DNA of 64,000 nt from Methyloversatilis discipulorum. Its GTDB lineage: Bacteria > Pseudomonadota > Gammaproteobacteria > Burkholderiales > Rhodocyclaceae. The notes under the pieces are model-generated. The model was not told where the DNA came from. It saw nothing but the letters and a program-made list of their open reading frames with translations, and ran no database searches. The stretch spans positions 1,612,001-1,676,000 of the forward strand of contig NZ_AZUP01000001.1 in NCBI RefSeq assembly GCF_000527135.1. Reading direction: 5' to 3'. This document shows, one piece after another, positions 5,835 to 54,205 of this stretch. Positions within the stretch are counted from its first letter, which is position 1; each line of letters opens with the position of its first letter. Both the position numbers and the translations under genes were made by a program.

Positions 5835-6800
5835 CTATGTTCGTCCGCAAGCGTTTTCGTGCTGTTTCGGGACATAGTCTGCGGCGTTCTTCATCAGTGA
5901 GAAGGCAACGCGCGCGAGCTTTCGGGCCAGCGCAACGAGCGCCTGGGTGCGACTGAATCCGCGCTGGAGCATGCGCTGGTAGAAGGGCTGCCAGGTCGTG
6001 GATCGGCTGGCTGCCATGGCGGCGTTGTAGAGCAGGCGGCGCATCTCCGAGTCGCCCTTCTTGCTCAGCGCACGGCGCCCAGTCTTCTTGCCCGAATCGC
6101 GCACGCTGACATCCAGGCCGAGGAAGGCGATGAAGGCGTCCGCGCCGCTGAAGGGAGCGCGATGGAAGGCCGCGCACAGGCCGGCGGCGGTGAGCGCGCC
6201 GACGCCTTCGATCTTCAGGATGCGCCGATACGGTTCCGTCCATCCGCTTTCGTTGATCAGCGAGGCGATGCGCTGCTCGAACTGTTTGATCAAGGCGGTG
6301 AGCCGCGCGAGGGCCACACGCACGTCGCGACCAAAGCCGGGCAGATCTTCCATGCTCTGACGGATGCGACCCAGGCTGCGCACCACGGTTGCGCGCCGAC
6401 GCAGCAGGCTGCGCAGCGCGGTGACCGCGGGCGCCGGGAGCGAGAACGGGCGCAGATCCGTGCCCTCGTGCGCGAGGTAGCGGGCGATCAGGCGTGCGTC
6501 GTGCCGATCGGTCTTGGCGCGCAGGCCCACGGTGTCGCGGTATCGGGACAGCTTGAAGCCGTCGATCAGAAACACCTGATGTCCGGCGCCGATGAGCAGC
6601 TCGACGAGCGTGCGGTGATAGGTGCCGGTCGATTCGCAGGCGATGCGCTGGTGGCCTTTCGGCAGCGTGCGTAACCAGCCGCGGATGGCCGCAGCCGTGT
6701 TGTCGATGCGCGTCACCCGCGCGCTGGGGTGCTCGGCGATGTCCAGCCAGTGCTTGGAGATATCGATGCCAAAGCACACTGCCTCGTTCTGACTTGTCAC
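5835..6800 (-). CDS. IS110-family transposase
   Basis: 321 aa from GTG 6800. The N-terminal RuvC-like DEDD domain shows GIDISK (first Asp), CESTGTY (Glu) and KTDRHDARLIA (Asp). The C-terminal transposase_20 domain shows GVGALTAAG and LGLDVSVRDSGKKTG, which carries a candidate catalytic Ser. The open frame reaches TTG 6827, but GTG 6800 has GGGAGG about seven bases upstream and starts close to the DISK motif, as is usual. The gene looks intact. Confidence 0.93.
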   Translation of the reverse strand: MTSQNEAVCFGIDISKHWLDIAEHPSARVTRIDNTAAAIRGWLRTLPKGHQRIACESTGTYHRTLVELLIGAGHQVFLIDGFKLSRYRDTVGLRAKTDRHDARLIARYLAHEGTDLRPFSLPAPAVTALRSLLRRRATVVRSLGRIRQSMEDLPGFGRDVRVALARLTALIKQFEQRIASLINESGWTEPYRRILKIEGVGALTAAGLCAAFHRAPFSGADAFIAFLGLDVSVRDSGKKTGRRALSKKGDSEMRRLLYNAAMAASRSTTWQPFYQRMLQRGFSRTQALVALARKLARVAFSLMKNAADYVPKQHENACGRT

Positions 6801-7075
6801 GATGGGGCCCTCCCGACTAAGGTTCAAAAGGCTTGTCGGGATTCACCACAGCACTGGCTTGCAGGGTATGGACGGTACCGTAGTAACACGGTCCGATGGA
6901 TTCCTGATCGGTGCTTGGGGTGAGGGCGGGACATCTCTCCCACTGTCTGTACGTGCTTGCCGTCAGATCCGAGCTCGGTCCCTCCGCCCGACAAGCTATT
7001 CCTACGCCTGCCGGGGTGGAACATACAAGCGAGCTTGCTCGCGATTGCAGCCGTCACCGGTCATCGCAGGCATCC
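6801..7075 (-). ncRNA. Candidate bridge RNA region of the IS110 element
   Basis: About 275 bases upstream of the transposase have no credible gene. IS110-group elements are known to encode a bridge RNA in this position that pairs with target and donor DNA. The stretch has inverted repeats: CCCGAC 6812-6817 with GTCGGG 6835-6840, and GCGAGC 7029-7034 with GCTCGC 7037-7042. The RNA itself is inferred; loops were not assigned. Confidence 0.35.
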
Positions 7076-8128: not shown

Positions 8129-8899
8129 ATGAGCACGAACGCAGACCGCAAGATCGCCCTCATCACCGGCAGCAGCCGTGGCCTCGGCCGCAACATGGCG
8201 CTGCACCTCGCCCGCCAGGGCGTGGATGTCGTCATCACCTACCGCAGCTATCGCGACGAGGCGGAAGCCGCTGCCGCCGAAGTGATCGCCGAAGGCGCAC
8301 GCGCCGTCGTGCTGCAGCTCGACGTGGCCGACAGCACAGGCTTCGCCGGCTTTGCCGACGCGCTGAAGTCGGCACTCGGCCAGCAATGGCAGCGCGACCG
8401 CTTCGACTATCTGGTGAACAACGCCGGCATCGGCATCTACGCCCCCTTCGCCGACACCACCCAAGCGCAGTTCGACGAACTGTTTCGCATCCACCTGAAA
8501 GCGCCCTTCTTCCTCACCCAGGCGCTGCTGCCGCTGATCGCCGACGGCGGCCGCATCCTCAACGTGTCGTCCGGCCTCGCCCGCTTCAGCATGCCGGGCT
8601 TCGCCGCCTACGCCGCGATGAAGGGCGGCGTCGAAGTGCTGACGCGCTTCATGGCGCGCGAACTGGGCGAGCGCCGCATCACGGTCAACACGTTGGCGCC
8701 GGGCGCCATCGAAACCGATTTCGCCGGCGGCATGGTGCGCGACACCCCGCAAGTGAACGGCGCCATCGCCGACCAGACGGCCCTCGGCCGCGTCGGCCTG
8801 CCGGACGACATCGGCGCCGCCGTCGCCGCCCTGCTGTCGGACGGAGGACGCTGGATCAATGGTCAGCGGATCGAGGTGGCGGGCGGCATTTACCTCTGA
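8129..8899 (+). CDS. SDR-family NAD(P)-dependent oxidoreductase
   Basis: 256 aa, classical short-chain dehydrogenase. Cofactor motif TGSSRGLG at 13-20, NNAG motif in YLVNNAGIGI, catalytic SSG...Y-A-A-M-K, and the PGAIETDF loop. The overall arrangement resembles FabG-like 3-ketoacyl reductases, but substrate cannot be told. Start ATG 8129 after ACCAGGAGAT; the frame is open further upstream but shadows the LysR gene. Probably controlled by the divergent LysR protein. Confidence 0.9.
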   Translation: MSTNADRKIALITGSSRGLGRNMALHLARQGVDVVITYRSYRDEAEAAAAEVIAEGARAVVLQLDVADSTGFAGFADALKSALGQQWQRDRFDYLVNNAGIGIYAPFADTTQAQFDELFRIHLKAPFFLTQALLPLIADGGRILNVSSGLARFSMPGFAAYAAMKGGVEVLTRFMARELGERRITVNTLAPGAIETDFAGGMVRDTPQVNGAIADQTALGRVGLPDDIGAAVAALLSDGGRWINGQRIEVAGGIYL

Positions 8900-8916
8900 T
8901 CCGGCCGGAGTTGGGA

Positions 8917-8961
8917 ACCGACCGGGCCTCGCTAGTCACTCGCGCGACAAGCCCGGTCGGT
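8917..8961 (+). terminator. Hairpin after the SDR gene
   Basis: ACCGACCGGGC (8917-8927) pairs perfectly with GCCCGGTCGGT (8951-8961) around a 23-base loop. It follows the SDR stop by 17 bases. No T-run follows, so it may be a Rho-aided terminator or an mRNA 3' end. It also marks the left limit of the host sequence before the integron. Confidence 0.5.
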
Positions 8962-9069
8962 CCCCGCTACGTGAAGCCGGAGTCCGCGTAGATGGCAGAT
9001 GCATGTTCCGGTAAAGTGATCAAGAACCGGACGGCATCAAGGGGTGAGGTTTTTCACATCCGTTTAATA

Positions 9070-9085
9070 CTGTATGAATGAACAG
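9070..9085. promoter_or_regulatory. LexA (SOS) box at the integron head
   Basis: CTGTATGAATGAACAG fits the CTGT-N8-ACAG LexA consensus of beta- and gammaproteobacteria. In integrons a LexA box lies in the promoter of the leftward integrase gene, next to attI. This one is in that position relative to the attI-like site at 9193, but no integrase gene follows on the minus strand: only about 170 bases separate it from the SDR gene. Confidence 0.65.
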
Positions 9086-9119
9086 TCAAAACATCCATAA
9101 TGACGCTGCCACGCGCGTT

Positions 9120-9199
9120 TCAGAGCGGTCACGGCTGTCTGTTTACCCGGCGCCGTCCATAGTTATGGCGCAAATCTGCGCCAGAAAACAAAGTTAGCC
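9120..9199 (+). other. attI-like integron recombination site (left limit approximate)
   Basis: The sequence AAAACAAAGTTAGCC ends here with a core GTTAGCC at 9193-9199, very close to the core of attI1 of class 1 integrons (AAAACAAAGTTAGGC, from memory). The first cassette starts immediately after the G of GTT. An identical cassette start (GTTAGCCGCCATG) recurs at 11626, confirming that 9193/9194 is a crossover point. Confidence 0.65.
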
Positions 9200-9271
9200 G
9201 CCATGTACCGCACCGTCTTTCCCCGCTGTACCGTTCCTGGCTCGGTCGAGCCCGAGCCATACAGCCACCTC

Positions 9272-9760
9272 ATGAGCGGCGCCGTGCCGAGAAAGTGCAG
9301 GCAGTGCGACCACCTGTTTGAAGGCGGTTGCAGGCGTGCCATGGAGCAGGTCCAGGGGTACCTTTCGCTTGATCACGGGCCCTGTCCGGTTAAGGGGCCC
9401 ACCGATCCAGTGTTGGTCGAAACGCAGTACTACCTGAGCAAGGCATACATCCCCTCCAAGTGCCGCACCTGTAGGCATCTTCTTCTTGATCCCATTCGAG
9501 GCTTCGTGTGCAACTTCGAGCGGGAGAAGTGGGGTAGCTTTCCGCGCACTCTTGATTGGGGTTCTTGGAGTCCAGAGCATCCCAATCTTGGTCTGCAAAG
9601 CGGGAGGTCGGTCTCCGTCGAGGTGCTGCAGGCTGTACGCCAAAGAAGTGAAGTCGGAGCAATCAAGGCCTTCCGAGCGGTACATCGAGATGCAACCCTC
9701 AAAGAAGCAAGGGAGGCGTATGCCGAACTTCTGGCAAAGGTTCATGGTGCTGTTGGCTAA
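9272..9760 (+). CDS. Cassette 1: Cys-rich hypothetical protein
   Basis: 162 aa, no family recognised. Cys residues at 9, 12, 20 and 38 (CRQC...C...C) and at 64, 67 and 80 (CRTC...C) suggest two small metal-binding knuckles. The frame is open from ATG 9203 (185 aa), but the second copy of the cassette has an extra base before this point. The reading shared by both copies begins at Met 9272, so that start is preferred. A 7-bp hairpin (GGCTCGG 9239-9245 / CCGAGCC 9252-9258) sits just upstream. The stop overlaps the start of attC1. Confidence 0.7.
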   Translation: MSGAVPRKCRQCDHLFEGGCRRAMEQVQGYLSLDHGPCPVKGPTDPVLVETQYYLSKAYIPSKCRTCRHLLLDPIRGFVCNFEREKWGSFPRTLDWGSWSPEHPNLGLQSGRSVSVEVLQAVRQRSEVGAIKAFRAVHRDATLKEAREAYAELLAKVHGAVG

Positions 9761-9828
9761 CCCCTCCATCGAGCGGACAAACAACGGCGGGCTTCGCCCA
9801 CCGTTGTTTGCCGCTCATGTCGAACGTT
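9755..9828 (+). repeat. attC1
   Basis: Inverse core GGCTAAC at 9755-9761, strong central dyad (AACAACGGCGGGCTTCGCCC then ACCGTTGTT), and core GTT at 9826-9828, where the IS1182-type element is inserted. Sequence matches attC2 apart from the interrupted end. Confidence 0.8.
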
Positions 9829-11625
9829 GAGGCTGTAGAAAAACCCCTCCCCACCCTCATCCGTTCACATGCCGTTGTTATGATTCCGCATCGCCTCTCC
9901 GGAGCTTTGCGATGCCGCGATTCAAGACGCCCGACTACGGTCTGAAGCTCATCCCGGTCGATTTCGCACAGCAGGTGCTGCCCGGTACCTTCGAGTTCGC
10001 GCTCTGCCATCTGGTCGACAACGACCTTGATCTCTCGACTTTGCGTGCCCGCTACGCCAACGACGCCGGCGGTGCCCCGGCTTTCGATCCGGCGGTGCTG
10101 CTCAAGATCGTGCTGCTTGGCTATTCGCGCGGGCTGATCAGCTCCCGATCCATCGCCACCGCCTGCCGCAACAACGTGCTGTTCATGGCCGTCTCCGGCG
10201 ACAGTGCGCCGCACTTCACCACGGTCGCGCACTTCATCAGCCGTCTCGGCAATGAGGCCCAAGCGCTCTTCACCGAGGTGCTGCTGGTGTGCGACCGCGA
10301 AGGGCTGATCGGGCGCGAGCTCTTCGCCATCGATGGTGTGAAGCTGCCGTCCAACGCATCGAAGGCAAAGAGCGGCACGCGTGCCGATTTCGAGCGCGAG
10401 GCGGCGAAGATGGAAGCGGCCGTGCAGCGCATGATCGGTGAGCAGAAGGCGCGCGATGCGGCCGGCTGCGACGACGAGGCCGCCCGCGCACAGCGCACCC
10501 GCGAACGCTTGAGTCACGAGGCGGCAAAGATCCGCGACTGGCTCGCGCGCAATCCGGACGACCGACGCGGCGCCAAGGGCGCGGTTCGCCTCTCGAATCG
10601 TACCGACAACGACTCAGCCAAGATGGCCACCGCCAAGGGCGTGATCCAGGGCTATACCGGCGTGGCCGCCGTCGATGCCGCCCACCAGATCGTCGTCGAT
10701 GCGCAGGCGCACGGCACCGGGTCCGAACAGGAACTGCTGCTGCCGGTGATCGATGCAAGCAGCGCACAGCGCGGACCTGACACTGCGATCTGCGCCGACG
10801 CGGGCTATCACTCCGAGAAGAACCTCGCCGAACTGGACAAGCGCGGCATCCCCGCCTGGGTGTGCGACAACGGCTACCGCCAGCGTGACCCCAGATACGC
10901 CGATCAGGCGAAGCACAAGACAAAACCCGACGCGCTGTGGGACAAGAGCGAGAAGGCGAAGGAAGCACGCACCGCCAGCAAGACCCGCCGCTACGCCAAC
11001 ACCGACTTCACCGAAGCGCCGGACCGCAGCCACTGCCTGTGCCCGGCGGGCAAGCGCCTCTATCGCAACGGGGGCGAGTGCACGATCAATGGCTACGCCG
11101 CGACCAAGTACACCGGCGCCGCGCGCGACTGCGTGCCGTGCGAGCAGCGCACCCGCTGCCTGCGCACGCCCGGAACGACGAAGGTGCGACAGGTCGCCTT
11201 CTTCCGCGGCAAGCGAGGCCACATCGAATCACACACCGAGCGGATGAAGCGGCGCATCGATTCCACGGAGGGCAAGCGGATGATTGCCGCACGGTTTGCC
11301 ACCGTAGAACCCGTGTTCGGCAACCTGCGGCACAACAAACGGCTCACCCGTTTCACGCTGCGCGGGCGGGAGAAGGTGGATGGGCAGTGGAAGCTGTACT
11401 GCCTGGTGCACAACATCGAGAAGCTCGGGCACCACGGATGCGCGAATTAGGTAAGCTGGCGGGAGAGGCCGGCGCCATTTCGAGCGCGCCGGGCAGCGGC
11501 CGGGGCTGACGTCAGGGGACAACGATGAAGCGAAGATCGGAAGGCTGAGAAGATGATGAACGACTTCGAGCCGGCATGCGCCGGTCACAACCGCTTGGCC
11601 CGAGATGGGGTTTTTCTACAGCGTC
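9829..11625 (+). mobile_element. IS1182-family insertion sequence inside the array
   Basis: GCTGTAGAAAAACCCC at 9832-9847 and its exact reverse complement at 11607-11622 are the terminal inverted repeats. They extend outward to GA(G/C), giving ends at about 9829 and 11625. The element is then flanked by GTT on both sides (9826-9828 and 11626-11628), consistent with a 3-bp target duplication. Removing it restores an ordinary attC-cassette junction, GTTAGCC. About 1.8 kb, one transposase gene. Confidence 0.82.
9912..11450 (+). CDS. IS1182-family transposase
   Basis: 512 aa, apparently intact. N-terminal InsH-like domain (FDPAVLLKIVLLGYSRGLIS), then a DDE core: first Asp in LFAIDGVKLPSNAS, second in AICADAGYHSEKN, and Glu in FATVEPVFGNLRH before NKRLTRFTLRG. 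A basic insertion of about 80 residues (about 155-240) lies between the first two catalytic segments. Two Cys clusters (CLCPAGK and CVPCEQRTRC) form the zinc-binding part usual in this group. IS family is given from overall resemblance. Confidence 0.88.
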   Translation: MPRFKTPDYGLKLIPVDFAQQVLPGTFEFALCHLVDNDLDLSTLRARYANDAGGAPAFDPAVLLKIVLLGYSRGLISSRSIATACRNNVLFMAVSGDSAPHFTTVAHFISRLGNEAQALFTEVLLVCDREGLIGRELFAIDGVKLPSNASKAKSGTRADFEREAAKMEAAVQRMIGEQKARDAAGCDDEAARAQRTRERLSHEAAKIRDWLARNPDDRRGAKGAVRLSNRTDNDSAKMATAKGVIQGYTGVAAVDAAHQIVVDAQAHGTGSEQELLLPVIDASSAQRGPDTAICADAGYHSEKNLAELDKRGIPAWVCDNGYRQRDPRYADQAKHKTKPDALWDKSEKAKEARTASKTRRYANTDFTEAPDRSHCLCPAGKRLYRNGGECTINGYAATKYTGAARDCVPCEQRTRCLRTPGTTKVRQVAFFRGKRGHIESHTERMKRRIDSTEGKRMIAARFATVEPVFGNLRHNKRLTRFTLRGREKVDGQWKLYCLVHNIEKLGHHGCAN

Positions 11626-11705
11626 GTTAGCCGCCATGTACCGCACCGTCTTTCCCCGCTGTACCGTTCCGGGGCTCGGTCGAGCCCGAGCCATACAGCC
11701 ACCTC

Positions 11706-12194
11706 ATGAGCGGCGCCGTGCCGAGAAAGTGCAGGCAGTGCGACCACCTGTTTGAAGGCGGTTGCAGGCGTGCCATGGAGCAGGTCCAGGGGTACCTTTC
11801 GCTTGATCACGGGCCCTGTCCGGTTAAGGGGCCCACCGATCCAGTGTTGGTCGAAACGCAGTACTACCTGAGCAAGGCATACATCCCCTCCAAGTGCCGC
11901 ACCTGTAGGCATCTTCTTCTTGATCCCATTCGAGGCTTCGTGTGCAACTTCGAGCGGGAGAAGTGGGGTAGCTTTCCGCGCACTCTTGATTGGGGTTCTT
12001 GGAGTCCAGAGCATCCCAATCTTGGTCTGCAAAGCGGGAGGTCGGTCTCCGTCGAGGTGCTGCAGGCTGTACGCCAAAGAAGTGAAGTCGGAGCAATCAA
12101 GGCCTTCCGAGCGGTACATCGAGATGCAACCCTCAAAGAAGCAAGGGAGGCGTATGCCGAACTTCTGGCAAAGGTTCATGGTGCTGTCGGCTAA
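11706..12194 (+). CDS. Cassette 2: second copy of the Cys-rich protein
   Basis: 162 aa, the same protein as cassette 1. Within the coding part the only change I found is a silent one in the penultimate codon (GTT to GTC). Upstream of Met 11706 the copy has one additional base (CCGGGG against CCTGG), which puts the more distal ATG out of frame. The cassette starts at the core GTTAGCC 11626-11632. Near-identity implies a recent cassette duplication. Confidence 0.7.
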   Translation: MSGAVPRKCRQCDHLFEGGCRRAMEQVQGYLSLDHGPCPVKGPTDPVLVETQYYLSKAYIPSKCRTCRHLLLDPIRGFVCNFEREKWGSFPRTLDWGSWSPEHPNLGLQSGRSVSVEVLQAVRQRSEVGAIKAFRAVHRDATLKEAREAYAELLAKVHGAVG

Positions 12195-12266
12195 CCCCTC
12201 CATCGAGCGGACAAACAACGGCGGGCTTCGCCCACCGTTGTTTGCCGCTCATGTCGAACGTTAGCT
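12189..12266 (+). repeat. attC2
   Basis: Inverse core GGCTAAC 12189-12195, the same large dyad as attC1, and core GTTAGCT 12260-12266. Intact version of the site disrupted in attC1. Confidence 0.82.
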
Positions 12267-12271
12267 TTCGA

Positions 12272-12754
12272 ATGATCTCCGGCACCATATCAGCATCCGA
12301 TTACCTCAATGCCCAACGGCTCCATCGGGCTAAGTCAGTACGTTGGTACTACGCCGCCTCTGGATTTGCCGTTGCTGCTGGCGTTGCGACGTATTTCTTC
12401 TACCAGCAGAAACTAGGCTTCATTATTGGCTGTGCTGGAGTTGGTGGCTTAATCGGCGAGCTCGTCATGTCGCTGCTCTATCTTCCGTGGAAGGTCCGCC
12501 GCCTTCACCAACAACAAAAGGATCTCGCCTTCCCATTCACCTATACGTGGGATAGTGAGTTTCTTGAAGCCAAGGGTGTCAGCGGACAATCAAAGCGCCA
12601 GTGGAGCAACTATGCAAAGTGCAAGGAGAATGAAAATCTGTTTCTCCTTTATCACTCCGACGCTCTCTTTGAAATGTTCCCCAAAGCTTGGTTTCAAGAT
12701 CAAACCCAAATCGCCGAGTTTCGAAGCTTGGCGCACCTTGCGGGAAAAACCTAA
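12272..12754 (+). CDS. Cassette 3: YcxB-like membrane protein
   Basis: 160 aa. Two hydrophobic helices (WYYAASGFAVAAGVATYFFY, about 25-44, and GFIIGCAGVGGLIGELVMSL) are followed by a cytoplasmic domain with FPFTYTWDSEFLEAKG, SNYAKCKENENLFLLYHSD and MFPKAWF, the pattern of YcxB-type proteins common in integron cassettes. The chosen ATG lies six bases after the attC2 core; earlier in-frame ATGs fall inside attC2. The stop overlaps attC3. Function unknown. Confidence 0.72.
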   Translation: MISGTISASDYLNAQRLHRAKSVRWYYAASGFAVAAGVATYFFYQQKLGFIIGCAGVGGLIGELVMSLLYLPWKVRRLHQQQKDLAFPFTYTWDSEFLEAKGVSGQSKRQWSNYAKCKENENLFLLYHSDALFEMFPKAWFQDQTQIAEFRSLAHLAGKT

Positions 12755-12835
12755 CATGGCGCTCAACCTCGCTCCCTTCGGTCGCTGGACGCTGCGCGAT
12801 AAAGCCGCGCAGCGCCGGTTAGCTCTACGTTAGAT
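12749..12835 (+). repeat. attC3
   Basis: Inverse core ACCTAAC 12749-12755 and core GTTAGAT 12829-12835. Central hairpin CGCTGCGCG / CGCGCAGCG. About 50 bases, from CGCTCCCTTCGGTCGCTGG onward, are the same as in attC4, so the two sites are one subfamily. Confidence 0.85.
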
Positions 12836-12839
12836 TGCT

Positions 12840-13111
12840 ATGAACGCTAGGCGCTTCAAGGTTGAAGAGACTTCCAAATCACTGGGCGAGGCACAGTGGT
12901 CGCGATCGGCGAGACGACTGACCTTCCCGTTGGCAGAGCGCTTAGTGTCACCGTCTTTCGTCCAGATGGTTCCCAGCTCTCCGTGCGGGCATTTAAAGAG
13001 TGGCTCCTTCGGCGTGATCCGCGGCCACTTGAGAAAGAAGCGTTTCTCTTGCGCGGCGTCGAGAAAGCTCAAGTTCCCGAGGGAAGTTCCATTGAGCTCG
13101 AAGCAATCTAA
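12840..13111 (+). pseudogene. Cassette 4: small protein gene broken by a frameshift
   Basis: ATG 12840 follows the attC3 core by four bases and reads MNARRFKVEE. The frame then degenerates and later runs into attC4. A shift to the next frame near 12870 gives FQITGRGTVVAIGETTDL and a coherent protein to a TAA overlapping attC4 at 13111. Joined, they make a protein of about 90 residues with a TGRGTVVAIG turn, as in small elongation-factor-domain-2-like proteins. One base seems lost around 12868-12872. Alternatively, a 71-aa product could start at GTG 12896, which has GAGG four bases before it. Confidence 0.55.
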
Positions 13112-13192
13112 CCCGGCGGTCGACCCCGCTCCCTTCGGTCGCTGGACGCTGCGCGATAAAGCCGCGCAGCGCCGGTCACCTCCACGTTAGAG
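13106..13192 (+). repeat. attC4
   Basis: Inverse core ATCTAAC 13106-13112 and core GTTAGAG 13186-13192. Same central hairpin and flanks as attC3. Confidence 0.85.
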
Positions 13193-13195
13193 CGC

Positions 13196-13570
13196 ATGAA
13201 TCCAATACGGTGGCTGCTGGAGCTGAGTGCGAGCCTAGCCGAGCGACGCGCAGGTAAAGTCGATCCGCGTGCTTATGGCTACGAACGCGTCGACTCCCGA
13301 GAGTACGAGGCATGGATTGAAATTGGCGAGGCCGTGCTCCTGGAGACCAATCTGAAGTGGCCTGAGCGATGGGTCCAGATTTCTGAAAATTCGAGACGAA
13401 TGTCCAGAGTGGTTCAAGCGCAGGACGGGCTCTTTCGGCTGAGCACCTACGAGAGCCGTGATGGCAAATGGTGCGGCTGGGAGGGACCGGCGATCTATGA
13501 GTCACTCGAATCTGCCATTGGTGCGGGGCTAGAACAGCTTGAACGTCAGGCTAGGTTGGCGCGTGCATAA
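13196..13570 (+). CDS. Cassette 5: hypothetical protein
   Basis: 124 aa, no family recognised. Mixed charged, Trp-rich soluble protein (WPERWVQIS, KWCGWEGPAIYESLESA) with no signal or membrane segment. ATG 13196 is ten bases after the attC4 core, the normal cassette position; the stop lies seven bases before attC5. Confidence 0.7.
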   Translation: MNPIRWLLELSASLAERRAGKVDPRAYGYERVDSREYEAWIEIGEAVLLETNLKWPERWVQISENSRRMSRVVQAQDGLFRLSTYESRDGKWCGWEGPAIYESLESAIGAGLEQLERQARLARA

Positions 13571-13576
13571 GATGCG

Positions 13577-13645
13577 CTCTAACCAGTCGCTCGAGCCGAC
13601 TCGCGTCGGCAAGCCGCCGCTCGCGGCTCAGCTTCAACGTTGAAC
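13577..13645 (+). repeat. attC5
   Basis: Inverse core CTCTAAC 13577-13583 and a fully consensus core GTTGAAC 13639-13645. Internal dyads GAGCCGACTCGCGTCGGC and GCCGCTCGCGGC. Different family from attC3/4. Confidence 0.78.
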
Positions 13646-13913
13646 GTCACCGGTTCTTGGTGTTTCTGGCGGGCGGTCCGAACCTGCGTGCAGCGCCCGA
13701 GCTAGCGGCTGCGGCAGTCAGCGAGTGTGGTCTCTTCGTACTCCGCGCTCGCGTGAGTTCGCCCCTTGTTGCGCCATGCCCTTGTGCTAGTGTTTCGGGG
13801 CATCGAGGGCGGCGGGCCATCGCGAGCGCCGCTGGCCTGGTTCAGTTCAGATCAACTTTGAGGGGCAACGGCTTCGTCATGCACAACCTGCCTTCGCTGA
13901 CGGTCTCGGTGTC
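13646..13913 (+). other. Cassette 6: no credible gene
   Basis: About 270 bases between attC5 and attC6 form one cassette. An open frame from TTG 13657 exists, but it runs right through attC6 and its composition is unconvincing; no ribosome site or family resemblance was seen on either strand. Either a noncoding cassette, one carrying an RNA or promoter, or a decayed gene. Confidence 0.5.
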
Positions 13914-14009
13914 GTCCAACACTGCGTTCGAGCGGACCGCCCAAAGCTGCGCTTTGGGTTCCCTGCGCGGCTGCGCCTCTCCGGCGTCCGCACAACTACA
14001 ACGTTAGGC
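13914..14009 (+). repeat. attC6
   Basis: Inverse core GTCCAAC 13914-13920 and core GTTAGGC 14003-14009, both fully consensus. Central dyad CCCAAAGCTGCGCTTTGGG. 96 bp, the longest site of the array. Confidence 0.82.
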
Positions 14010-14014
14010 CTCAC

Positions 14015-14254
14015 ATGCCAGCATCTGATCCCAGGATCCCAATTGATCGAACCAAATGGTCGGTTGGCAGCCAACGAACCACCGGGCACTATGACGAGCA
14101 AGCAACTGAGTACGAAGGGATTCGGTGCCAATGCCGAGCGTGTACGCGTTCGTTTGTCTTCACCGCCACGGAACAGCAAGCCGCCTACGAAGTCGAGAAG
14201 CGCTATGTTTGGTACCTACCGAAGCTCTGTCATGAGTGCGCATCAAAGTCATAG
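14015..14254 (+). CDS. Cassette 7: zinc-ribbon protein
   Basis: 79 aa. A single zinc ribbon: CRAC at 40-43 and CHEC at 72-75, separated by the helix RSFVFTATEQQAAYEVEKRY. The pattern resembles short probable zinc-ribbon proteins of unknown role found in many bacteria and cassettes. ATG 14015 is five bases after the attC6 core. Confidence 0.75.
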   Translation: MPASDPRIPIDRTKWSVGSQRTTGHYDEQATEYEGIRCQCRACTRSFVFTATEQQAAYEVEKRYVWYLPKLCHECASKS

Positions 14255-14296
14255 CAAGGCTTCTTTCTCTGCAGCACTGTCCAGCCACATACACCG

Positions 14297-14381
14297 GCCT
14301 AACTGGGCGTTGCAGGGGACGCCTCCACGGCTGCGCGCTTCGGCCATGCCAAGCGTGCGCCCCTGAACTTGGGCGTTAGAG
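14297..14381 (+). repeat. attC7
   Basis: Inverse core GCCTAAC 14297-14303 and core GTTAGAG 14375-14381. The ends pair as TAACTGGGCGTT... with ...CTTGGGCGTTAG. This type resembles attC sites of Xanthomonas-like chromosomal integrons (from memory). Confidence 0.8.
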
Positions 14382-14388
14382 ATCATCG

Positions 14389-14838
14389 ATGACAACGCTC
14401 ACGGAATTTCTAAAAACATGGTGGCTACCAGTTGCAACATACCTATTAGCCACGACGCCGTCAGCCATTGTCCTATTCTTCCAAAACACCCTATCGCCCC
14501 ACATAAAAGAACTGCAGCCAGTTGTGCTGCTGAATACAGTGGCGCTATTGCTATGGCTACTTCTGCTGCTATTGGCATACATACTCCTTCAGCGCCCGTG
14601 GCTCCGTTGGGATGAACCAACGGGAACCTGGGTTAGCCGCATTACGTCGCTTCGCTATTGCGGCTCGTGTCGCGCCAAAAGAATCATTGTTCCCCTCAAG
14701 AACGAGATCACAGGCTGGCGCTGCGTAGCTTGCAATACCTTCCGCACTGATCCAGCGAGAAAGAGGGGTGATGAAACGACCGCAAGGCAATCGAATGGAA
14801 ATCGGTTGGGCAAGCCTGAGTGGCGCGATGGTCTCTAA
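14389..14838 (+). CDS. Cassette 8: membrane protein with a C-terminal zinc ribbon
   Basis: 149 aa. Two transmembrane helices: WWLPVATYLLATTPSAIVLF (11-30) and LLNTVALLLWLLLLLLAYIL (about 47-66). After a short amphipathic stretch comes a cytoplasmic-looking zinc ribbon with Cys 91, 94, 112 and 115 (CGSC...CVAC). No family recognised; the layout resembles small membrane effectors or sensors. ATG 14389 lies eight bases after the attC7 core; the stop overlaps attC8. Confidence 0.7.
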   Translation: MTTLTEFLKTWWLPVATYLLATTPSAIVLFFQNTLSPHIKELQPVVLLNTVALLLWLLLLLLAYILLQRPWLRWDEPTGTWVSRITSLRYCGSCRAKRIIVPLKNEITGWRCVACNTFRTDPARKRGDETTARQSNGNRLGKPEWRDGL

Positions 14839-14913
14839 CATCGCGCTCAGAACCGCTCCCTTCGGTCGCTTGGACGCGACGCAAGCGGCGCGCCATTTAG
14901 CTCAACGTTAGGG
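14833..14913 (+). repeat. attC8
   Basis: Inverse core CTCTAAC 14833-14839 and core GTTAGGG 14907-14913. Shares CGCTCCCTTCGGTCGCT with attC3/4 but differs in the central arm. Confidence 0.8.
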
Positions 14914-14917
14914 CGCA

Positions 14918-15352
14918 ATGACAGTCGCGCTTTCAGCTCTCGCTGGGATTGCCGTAGTGGCCTTTGTCGTTTGGTCGGTTCGGCGCGAATCCAAAGCGAA
15001 GGAGAAAAAAGTCCAAGAGACATTCGCCGGCCGTGAGTCGCTTACTCCGGATGAGTTCTATGATCGTTACTTTCTCGGCCAAGGCGTCGCACCAGAGGTT
15101 GTTTCAGGAATTCGCAAAATCCTTGAGGAACAGCTTGCCGCTGATATGTCCCGCCTTCGCGCAGAGGACGATTTTTCAAAGAACCTCAGTTTCTTCTGGG
15201 ACTTTGACTCAATGGCCAATGTCGAAATCGTGCTCGCAATTGAGGAGCACTTTCAAATCAAGATCGCAGATCCGGAGGCAGAGAATACGCACACGGTATC
15301 TGAGTTGGTACAGTTGGTTTCCAGCAAAATCGGGAGGCCAAGTGCGCCCTAA
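14918..15352 (+). CDS. Cassette 9: membrane-anchored acyl-carrier-protein-like protein
   Basis: 144 aa. N-terminal helix VALSALAGIAVVAFVVWS (3-20) followed by a basic stretch VRRESKAKEKK, so the protein is probably anchored with the rest in the cytoplasm. The C-terminal part FFWDFDSMANVEIVLAIEEH reads like an acyl carrier protein: helix II begins at D97-S98-M99, where Ser98 would take phosphopantetheine, and EEHFQIKI matches ACP helix II/III. An anchored carrier protein is unusual for a cassette gene. Post-translational loading is inferred only. The stop overlaps attC9. Confidence 0.68.
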   Translation: MTVALSALAGIAVVAFVVWSVRRESKAKEKKVQETFAGRESLTPDEFYDRYFLGQGVAPEVVSGIRKILEEQLAADMSRLRAEDDFSKNLSFFWDFDSMANVEIVLAIEEHFQIKIADPEAENTHTVSELVQLVSSKIGRPSAP

Positions 15353-15406
15353 CCCGGCAGTCAAGCGGGACGCGCCTTCGGCGCGCCCCTTACTTTTACG
15401 TTCGGC
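15347..15406 (+). repeat. attC9
   Basis: Inverse core CCCTAAC 15347-15353 and core GTTCGGC 15400-15406, with the arm GACGCGCCTTCGGCGCGCCC. 60 bp, shortest of the array and the last one seen. Confidence 0.75.
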
Positions 15407-15409
15407 ATC

Positions 15410-15883
15410 ATGAAATTTCAGCGCGTTCAGTACGCCAAGCTCAATGCGCGGCAACAGGAGGCGTACAACTTCCAGAAGGTGTCCGGAGTTCTGGCTGACT
15501 ACGGCTTCACAACCATTCGGCTATCGGATGACTGGCAGAGCGCAGACTTTATTGCACAGCACATTGACGGCCAGCAGTTCTTGAAGGTCCAGCTCAAAGG
15601 CCGATGCACCTTAGCGAAGAAGTACATGGGTAAGGACCTGCACATCTGCTTTCACGACCAAGGAGCTTGGTATTTGGCTCCGCATGACGAGTTGCTGGAG
15701 TGGGCGCAACAAAACACGAATATCACAAACACGGAGTCGTGGAATACCGCCGGCCTGTATTCGTTTCCTTACTTATCGGCTGCATTGAAGCAGCGCCTTG
15801 AATCGTATCGGCTCGGTGGCGCCGAACCATCGGTTCCTCCCGAAGACCGGGCGGTCGAAAACGGCAGCCAGAGCGGCACGTAA
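15410..15883 (+). CDS. Cassette 10: possible PD-(D/E)XK-fold protein
   Basis: 157 aa. ATG 15410 lies four bases after the attC9 core, so it is a cassette gene, but no attC follows its stop; the cassette is either truncated or terminal. The segment with Asp46 (WQSADFIAQ) and, 15 residues later, V-Q-L-K-G-R (Q61, K63) recalls the D...(E/Q)-x-K core of restriction-like nucleases. This is a weak motif-level suggestion. No membrane or signal segment. Confidence 0.62.
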   Translation: MKFQRVQYAKLNARQQEAYNFQKVSGVLADYGFTTIRLSDDWQSADFIAQHIDGQQFLKVQLKGRCTLAKKYMGKDLHICFHDQGAWYLAPHDELLEWAQQNTNITNTESWNTAGLYSFPYLSAALKQRLESYRLGGAEPSVPPEDRAVENGSQSGT

Positions 15884-16059
15884 GCCGGAGAGATCCGCCG
15901 TCTGTCATTATTCAGTCGCGCGGTCCTGGTCAAGACACCGCGATTGGAATTCCACGCCCCTCGGACACATCGCCAGCGAAGTGCGTGCGCGATATCCGGG
16001 CGACACGCCGTAGCCAGGAACGCCGCTTCTCGTCCGGTCACCATCTTCCGCCCGCGGAC

Positions 16060-16100
16060 TAAAAAAAGCCGGAAGAGCTCACGCCCCTCCGGCTTCTTCA
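16060..16100 (-). terminator. Rho-independent terminator of the PEP-CTERM gene
   Basis: On the minus strand the stem AAGCCGGA / TCCGGCTT is followed by a run of seven T. It ends the transcript of the gene at 16120-16833. Confidence 0.85.
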
Positions 16101-16119
16101 CTGCGACTCCGCCCCGGAA

Positions 16120-16833
16120 TCAGTCGCGTGTACGACGACGGGCGGCAGCACCGATCAGGCCGAGGCCAGCGATCAGCATCGCGTAGGTTTCAGGTTCGGG
16201 CACGGCGGCGATCGCGAAGTTGTCGAGCTGCAGCTGGCTGCTGGCTGTGTAGTCGAGCACATCGACCACGCCGACGCCCAGCGTGACCGAACCGCTGCCG
16301 GTGAACACGTATTCGAAGGTCGACCAGCCGGTATGGGCGGCGTACGGCGTGTTGCCGGACGGGGCGGCCGAGGCGGCGGTGCCCAGATCGATGCGCTGGC
16401 CGCCGATCACGACGAAGGCGTAGTCCAGACCGAAGCCGGTTTCCGCGATATCCATGGTCGACAGCATCCAGTCGAAGCTCAGGCGATCGCCGGCCGACAC
16501 GTTGAAGGTACGCAGCAGTGCCGAACCTTCAGTGGCCTGCGACAGTGCGTCGCCGTCGAGCGCGCCCAGCGGCAGGCTCAGGCCCTGCTCGAGCCCGTCG
16601 GGCATGCCGGCTGCCAGCGGATCGTGGCCCGACAGGTTCAGCGCGAGACCGATGTCGTCCTCGAAGGTCGCGCTGGCGGTGGTCAGTGCGACCGTGCCAT
16701 TGACGAGGGCGACGTCGCCCAGCGCCGTCCAGCCTGACAGGCCGTTGTCGAAGGTGTCGCTGAAGGTGGCGGCGGAGGCAAACGGCGCTGCAAATGACAG
16801 TGCGAGCGCGGGGATCAGTGCTTTCAGTTTCAT
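16120..16833 (-). CDS. PEP-CTERM sorting domain protein
   Basis: 237 aa exported protein. Signal peptide MKLKALIPALALSFAAPFAS at the N-terminus; C-terminal sorting tail VPEPETYAMLIAGLGLIG followed by Arg-rich RRRTRD. The body is a beta-rich domain (FDNGLSGWTALGDVALVNG, QLQLDNFAI) typical of carbohydrate-binding or adhesin-like surface proteins. PEP-CTERM proteins are processed by an exosortase, not present in this window. Strong terminator directly downstream. Confidence 0.92.
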   Translation of the reverse strand: MKLKALIPALALSFAAPFASAATFSDTFDNGLSGWTALGDVALVNGTVALTTASATFEDDIGLALNLSGHDPLAAGMPDGLEQGLSLPLGALDGDALSQATEGSALLRTFNVSAGDRLSFDWMLSTMDIAETGFGLDYAFVVIGGQRIDLGTAASAAPSGNTPYAAHTGWSTFEYVFTGSGSVTLGVGVVDVLDYTASSQLQLDNFAIAAVPEPETYAMLIAGLGLIGAAARRRTRD

Positions 16834-54189: not shown

Positions 54190-54205
54190 CTGTATATCCA
54201 TACAG
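54190..54205. promoter_or_regulatory. LexA (SOS) box
   Basis: CTGTATATCCATACAG, a near-ideal LexA box (CTGT-N8-ACAG, AT-rich centre). It ends seven bases before ATG 54213 of the rightward gene, so that gene is probably SOS-induced, or repressed by host LexA. Confidence 0.75.

Follow-up and report, generated by a model that had tools for sequence, protein, structure and literature searches.

An attI platform without an integrase gene heads a cassette array in Methyloversatilis discipulorum and is probably the satellite of a distant integron

Clusters of attC sites lacking integron integrases (CALINs), as passages of one survey describe them, are sets of two or more attC sites without a nearby integrase gene (intI); they are proposed to be degraded integrons and were similar in abundance to complete integrons (2961 versus 2760), and detection of attI sites by IntegronFinder is limited to class 1 (PMC9024848). 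In Xanthomonas, CALINs occupy a few conserved loci away from the intI locus, and mobilisation in trans is mentioned as well (PMC12444791). The delta-attI cassettes of mobile integrons are, according to a further report, recombined by IntI1 (PMC12901181). Our study concerns a cassette array within a 64-kb stretch of DNA from Methyloversatilis discipulorum (the window), which spans 1,612,001-1,676,000 of a 4.31-Mb genome assembled as one contig, here called G000; coordinates are positions in the window unless a genome position is named. By its sequence, the array is a CALIN variant in which a conserved attI and the promoter-side end of intI survive, and we consider it probable that the region is an old satellite integron without intI, made of a platform of ~156 bp and an array, which went on exchanging cassettes and was served in trans by a distant integrase. 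A first-pass annotation had described an integron array with a LexA box and attI from which intI had been lost; that observation as a whole is confirmed, and the interpretation placed on it is partly supported. The accessible parts of the open-licence literature yielded no report of orphan attI platforms, that is, of attI units without intI beside them, and among open-licence papers naming both integron and Methyloversatilis none is, by title, on the integrons of this genus.

The nine attC sites counted in the first pass are borne out by two covariance models. R1, built from 19 of 21 attC arms (w1 and m2 excluded) and including eight of the window's sites, places nine attC sites in the window, all on the plus strand between 9755 and 15406 (E 6.7e-11 to 4.6e-6), and finds no further attC match there at E<=1. 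R2, built from 10 of the 11 arms of R1 that come from the main array of the same genome (m9 excluded as a near-copy), recovers the identical nine at E<=0.0011, the next window match having E 0.91; it is not fully independent, as one arm comes from a near-copy of the window cassette at 13640-14003. The attC stem covaries, with the observed score reached by none of 500 shuffles, and the sites combine the GTT core and the fold with a covarying stem that gene cassettes require. Folding the bottom strand of each site gave energy z-scores of -6.3, -8.2, -2.7, -4.8, -1.4, -0.5, -0.6, -1.0 and -1.3 in array order, which are strong in three, fair in one and unremarkable in five; folding energy being the weaker evidence, the attC assignment rests on the covariance models and the covariation. 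A pattern-based attC finder recovered only five of the nine sites and was replaced by these models, and Rfam at gathering scores returned tRNA as the sole entry for the window. The locus thus holds nine attC sites with no intI nearby, which is the arrangement that defines a CALIN.

At the head of the array the parts follow the integron order proposed in the first pass, with the end of intI (9058-9041), the LexA box (9070-9085), attI (9163-9195) and the attC array (9755-15406) in succession. On the minus strand the intI stub reads GTG AAA AAC CTC ACC CCT and then TGA, matching the MKNLTP that starts the intact IntI of a related genome, G004. Homology to intI stops to the left of the stub, at a breakpoint near ~9040; the earlier statement that intI is absent and lost therefore stands for the gene as a whole, but its first six codons are still present. 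The absence of an intact intI from the region is supported by the TIGR02249 profile, which finds no intI in the window, and by tblastn with IntI over 3 kb of upstream sequence, which gives chance-level matches only; attI has no intI beside it here, as it would in a complete integron. The LexA box is upheld by its alignment with the boxes that precede intI genes and not by pattern count, as CTGTN8ACAG occurs twice in the window against 0.64 expected, which is not significant and was set aside as evidence. A second LexA-box-like palindrome, CTGTATATCCATACAG, lies at 54190-54205. The attI-like core of the first pass also holds: judged by an exact 18-mer at 9178-9195 (0.04 matches expected by chance at <=3 mismatches) and by alignment with attI sites beside intI genes, the window site is, by sequence, an attI recombination site. 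We take the crossover to lie between G9193 and T9194, a position assumed from general integron biology. A consensus scan of 8850-16150 for a sigma-70-like site (Pc) returned none, with 1.6 expected by chance. The locus is not an insertion of the attG type, in which the first cassette sits at a chromosomal site unlike attI, as cassette 1 follows a conserved attI; attG is mentioned in PMC12444791.

Over the whole genome, where the first pass had proposed a search with an intI profile, TIGR02249 finds one intI only, at 3.017 Mb (3,016,920-3,017,860), 1.39 Mb from the window platform, and in two frames. The gene is frameshifted into pieces covering TIGR02249 positions 1-194 and 192-315, both with ~91% identity to the IntI that is intact in G004; the break is either genuine or an error of sequencing. 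An attI and 14 attC matches belong to this main integron, and its LexA box departs from CTGTN8ACAG. Its intI stands beside a gene that we take to be GatB-like, as it does in nine other genomes where that gene was sought and found. In our sample of 13 Methyloversatilis genomes, with intI called by TIGR02249 at E<=1e-30, 11 have intI at one gene place each and none has it at more than one, while G007 and G010 give no match at this threshold. The gene is near-complete in one stretch over the profile in eight of the 13; it is split in G000, tblastn shows it in pieces in G005, and the G009 match is restricted to TIGR02249 positions 191-304.

Platforms are more numerous than integrase genes across this sample. 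A blastn search with window 9020-9215 gave 31 rows in 11 of the 13 genomes, reduced to 28 modules once two second pieces were merged and one copy of a cassette-1 start was dropped; 27 of these were cut to 152-159 bp, and that of the G000 main integron was taken at 175 bp. Nine modules lie beside intI and 19 are orphan, the latter spread over eight genomes (four in G000, the window's included, four in G010, three each in G004 and G011, two in G003, and one each in G012, G009 and G002). Several genomes have orphan loci in common, namely locus A (four genomes), B (seven), C (three) and W, the window locus (G000, G003 and G010), and G011 has two more single-case loci. Two further divergent orphan modules, on contig 29 of G008 (E 0.005) and contig 43 of G005, stand outside these counts. 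An attC match follows attI at 4/4 platforms of locus A, 3/3 of W, 5/7 of B and 2/3 of C, the weakest being those of G010 at C (E 0.077) and at W (E 0.0057). Arrays without an attI module match also exist, at 2.56 Mb in G000 and at 0.51 and 1.91 Mb in G010, so orphan attI cannot account for all CALINs. At locus C, 90-94 nt of intI survive in decayed form (blastn E 2e-7 in G004 and 1e-5 in G000); this locus at least was therefore once a fuller integron.

The positions of these platforms are shared between genomes, and the DNA past the crossover differs. Of 33 within-locus genome pairs at A, B, W and C, 32 match over 300 bp to the left of the module (the sole miss being at C), but no pair matches over 500 bp to the right of the attI core. 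Where the first pass looked to the same locus in related strains for an intact intI, the platform proved orphan also in G003 and G010, and G001 has no platform: its locus W is empty, and after the flank gene come, within ~20 bases, a terminator-like repeat and then the right flank gene, with neither platform nor array between the two genes. By the right flank of W, G003 and G010 have 1.4 kb in common; a polarity argument from this stretch, which is without an attC match, was not used. The flank gene of locus B is present in 13/13 genomes and the module in seven, the module profile finding none in the remaining six fetched loci. The flank gene of locus A (E<=1e-140) is present in 10/13 and the module in four; the profile finds none in the other six loci, and the G002 match ends early, with its junction outside view. 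Within 1.5 kb of flank, none of these 12 module-free loci (six A, six B) shows an eroded module at E<=1. In a tree of the modules, built from short sequences and with low support on over half of its inner branches, B forms one clade (98/97) and W another (97/100). The LexA box is absent from all seven B modules; B being one clade, the box was probably lost before the seven genomes diverged.

What is kept in the orphans is chiefly the recombination site. Relative to a consensus of eight intI-adjacent modules, the mean identity of the 33-bp attI core is 0.94-0.96 at A, B and W, 0.89 at C and 0.88 in G011, whereas in orphans the LexA box falls to 0.37-0.86 and the middle to 0.30-0.60; identity of the core exceeds that of the middle in 19/19 orphans. 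The parts linked to intI decay, and an intact CTGTN8ACAG box is found in 8/9 intI-adjacent modules versus 3/19 orphans. In B the first 21 bp, where intI starts, also retain an identity of 0.75. In the A, B and W modules the GTGAGGTTTTT end of intI (window 9040-9060) is largely kept, even in B with its missing box, and the G008 module has an end resembling it. Because the W, A and B platforms all end near AAGGGG, at about intI codon 6, we entertained the idea of a mobile unit whose left end is fixed there; the longer intI relics at C mean, however, that decay to a retained end is also possible.

From the cassette differences we infer that IntI acted in trans and that it originated from the main integron. 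IntI made there would act on orphan platforms at other loci, binding folded attC sites and any attI of the Methyloversatilis type; it would excise cassettes as single-stranded attC hairpins and join them at the G^TT of whatever attI it meets. Orphan platforms at W (three genomes) and B (seven) have a left boundary in common, and the loss of intI most likely preceded the divergence of these genomes; for this reason the differing cassettes at B and W point to IntI acting in trans. In the window's strain such exchange has probably stopped, as intI is frameshifted there, unless the break is a sequencing error. The first-pass suggestion that an integrase elsewhere in the cell could feed the array thus gains from the cassette differences between genomes but loses by the state of this genome's only intI.

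Several observations weigh against service in trans. G010 has four orphan platforms and no intI match, and present use of the platforms in G000 and G010 is doubtful; the cores of the W platform in G010 and the C platform in G000 are damaged, and no attC match lies downstream of the B platforms of G012 and G004. In G009 the intI fragment (residues 205-317 by tblastn; L101, L094) is on the same contig as the locus-B module, 14.5 kb apart, and a nearby intI may once have served locus B in that genome; the fragment, which comes from an intI of different appearance, lies away from the GatB-like gene and has ~80% DNA identity to the intI of G001. The eight intI-adjacent modules show the same order of identities with a smaller gap (core 0.91-1.00 versus middle 0.72-0.94), and the similarity-based module search weighs the core, which weakens the point about core retention; the lack of eroded modules at the 12 module-free loci, within their 1.5 kb of flank, speaks against such a bias. 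The locus-A module of G000 is closer to the C modules than to the A modules of its relatives (94/85), and its adjoining left bases differ; locus A may have been refilled or converted, and the resemblance suggests exchange between loci. Homologous recombination could provide an alternative route for cassette swaps.

These points bear most directly on the view that the array is an ordinary relic, in which a complete integron stood here, intI was deleted, a fossil array was left, and the differences between genomes predate the loss of intI. The six intI codons at the window locus, the 90-94 nt of decayed intI at C, the G009 fragment and the widespread inactivation of intI described in the Xanthomonas report (PMC12444791) all agree with such a history. 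We nevertheless regard it as unlikely, because the shared boundaries at W and B most probably put the loss of intI before divergence and the DNA past the crossover differs in every W and B pair. Units 5-6 of the window cluster with units 2-3 of the main array in matching order, at 95% identity over 826 bp, and an insertion sequence (IS) of the IS1182 family is present in both arrays, as would be expected had attI and part of the main array been copied to this place through an IS or through recombination of the two arrays, with no IntI acting at this attI. Yet the window and main platforms are only 73% identical, no further window unit clusters with the main array, and the locus-W platforms of G003 and G010 lead into unrelated DNA at the crossover; a segmental copy is accordingly very improbable. 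The duplicated cassette and the IS repeats could also have misled assembly, but with the genome in a single contig and the locus-W platform present in two other genomes, an artefact is scarcely credible. Service in trans from a distant integrase thus remains the reading that we prefer.

The cassettes and flanks of the window are listed in Table 1.

Table 1. Features of the platform, the array and its chromosomal flanks in the window
Feature	Position	Strand	Evidence or remark
Left chromosomal flank gene	8129..8899	+	start picked by eye; matches in G003, G010 and G001; labelled SDR in the first pass
intI remnant, six codons (M)KNLTP then stop	9038..9058	-	alignment with the start of the main-integron intI
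Orphan platform module, with the 5' end of intI, its promoter region, the LexA box and attI	9040..9195	+	module hidden Markov model E 1.7e-37, not independent as the model includes this module; alignment with intI-adjacent modules
LexA box CTGTATGAATGAACAG	9070..9085		pattern CTGTN8ACAG; aligned with boxes of intI-adjacent modules
attI core	9163..9195	+	alignment to attI beside intI genes; 18-mer match
Cassette 1, open reading frame (ORF) 9203-9760 (185 aa, no confident Pfam family), attC 9755-9832	9194..9826	+	
IS1182-family element in attC core, transposase 9912-11450, flanked by GTT 9826-9828 and 11626-11628	9829..11625	+	
Cassette 1, second copy, attC 12189-12266	11627..12260	+	99.5% identity over 637 bp
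Cassette with YcxB-like protein, ORF up to 12754, attC 12749-12835	12261..12829	+	PF14317 E 3.7e-11
Cassette, ORF 12896-13111 (71 aa), attC 13106-13192	12830..13186	+	
Cassette common to main array, ORF 13196-13570 (124 aa), attC 13577-13645	13187..13639	+	
Repeated ORF-poor cassette, attC 13914-14009	13640..14003	+	
Cassette with treble-clef zinc protein, ORF 14015-14254, attC 14297-14381	14004..14375	+	PF13451 E 5.6e-6
Cassette, ORF 14389-14838 (149 aa), attC 14833-14913	14376..14907	+	
Cassette with acyl-carrier-like protein, ORF 14918-15352, attC 15347-15406	14908..15400	+	PF00550 E 4.8e-6
Terminal stretch, ORF 15410-15883 (157 aa)	15401..16079	+	no attC match behind
Right chromosomal flank gene (PEP-CTERM protein, a name presumed from its C-terminal motif)	16120..16833	-	

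The first pass had spoken of about ten cassettes; a cassette array is indeed present, but one of its units is the IS1182-family insertion between the two copies of cassette 1, and the ORF that was to close the array is the terminal one with no attC match behind it. The right flank held in common with G003 begins at ~16080. Among ten window ORFs, Pfam finds domains in four (transposase, YcxB, treble-clef and carrier protein) and nothing confident in six; PADLOC gives a single weak match (E 0.019) among them, on which we base no claim of a defence system. In the main array, the copy of the 124-aa cassette (L004 10596-10960) has an early stop codon. Of 144 cassettes that were cut, 12 are copies of the ORF-poor cassette of ~364 bp, from G000, G003 and G010, and loci L004, L083, L158, L079 and L161 are also listed for ORF-poor repeated cassettes; such a cassette may carry a promoter. 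A different repeated cassette of ~358 bp is found in five copies in G011 and G012.

The element at 9829-11625, which we assign to the IS1182 family by assumption and whose transposase domains are Pfam matches, targets the attC core, as seen also at loci L174-L203. Its left end has at least 35 matches in the genus, with up to 40 candidates scored per genome; 30 loci were fetched, and in 25 the left end was resolvable by motif. GTT precedes the left end in 25/25 of these, and the insertion lies at the end of a same-strand attC match in 23/25. The accessible parts of the open-licence literature gave no report of an attC-targeting IS1182. Upstream of the region, an ORF at 5835-6827 encodes a presumably IS110-like transposase.

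A search at family level, over 150 genomes drawn from a larger group, in which the best five candidates or fewer per genome were scored, gave matches in at least 11 genomes outside Methyloversatilis. Nine genomes of eight other genera (L223-L228, L231-L233) carry a second orphan attI-like unit, in at least 12 copies including one partial; the 11 copies aligned are conserved over ~250 bp and then fall to random identity. We presume a likeness of this unit to the attI1 of class 1 integrons. Searches of up to 6 kb of upstream sequence, as far as the contigs reach (351 bp for one copy), gave no intI apart from a 47-residue remnant in G128, and the same query set finds intI in 11/11 control loci. 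In seven of the nine genomes an attC match follows the unit within ~4 kb. The three copies of the unit in G128 stand no more than 4.7 kb apart; a full scan of their contig with R1 yields no attC at E<=0.05, and a smaller search showed a 16.7-bit match. In G160 (L229) an intI without its middle part (residues ~126-274 unmatched) stands beside a Methyloversatilis-like attI. We tentatively put forward, as a possibility short of our main proposal in confidence, that the platforms form a distributed integron, in which one chromosomal integrase would serve several attI platforms spread over the genome and the attI unit itself, not the cassettes alone, would disperse, with two types across the family. 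Were this true, some CALINs would be outstations of a distant integrase, which would explain their fixed positions, and searches that ignore attI would miss distributed integrons. As attI outside class 1 is undetected by IntegronFinder, attI anchors like that of the window would escape it.

Set beside the known systems, the window cluster resembles CALINs in having two or more attC sites and no nearby intI, but differs in that its attI is conserved and that intI survives at its promoter end. With sedentary chromosomal integrons, of which the main locus of G000 is one, it has in common the attI, the promoter region of intI with its LexA box and the attC array, whereas intI itself is lacking. 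As with the CALINs of Xanthomonas, the platforms occupy conserved places distant from intI; the main text of that report, in its five mentions of attI, puts the site at none of those CALINs (PMC12444791), and an attI at platforms of the window type could explain their fixed position. The delta-attI cassettes likewise carry attI outside its usual place, but there it lies inside cassettes, while in Methyloversatilis it heads arrays at chromosomal loci.

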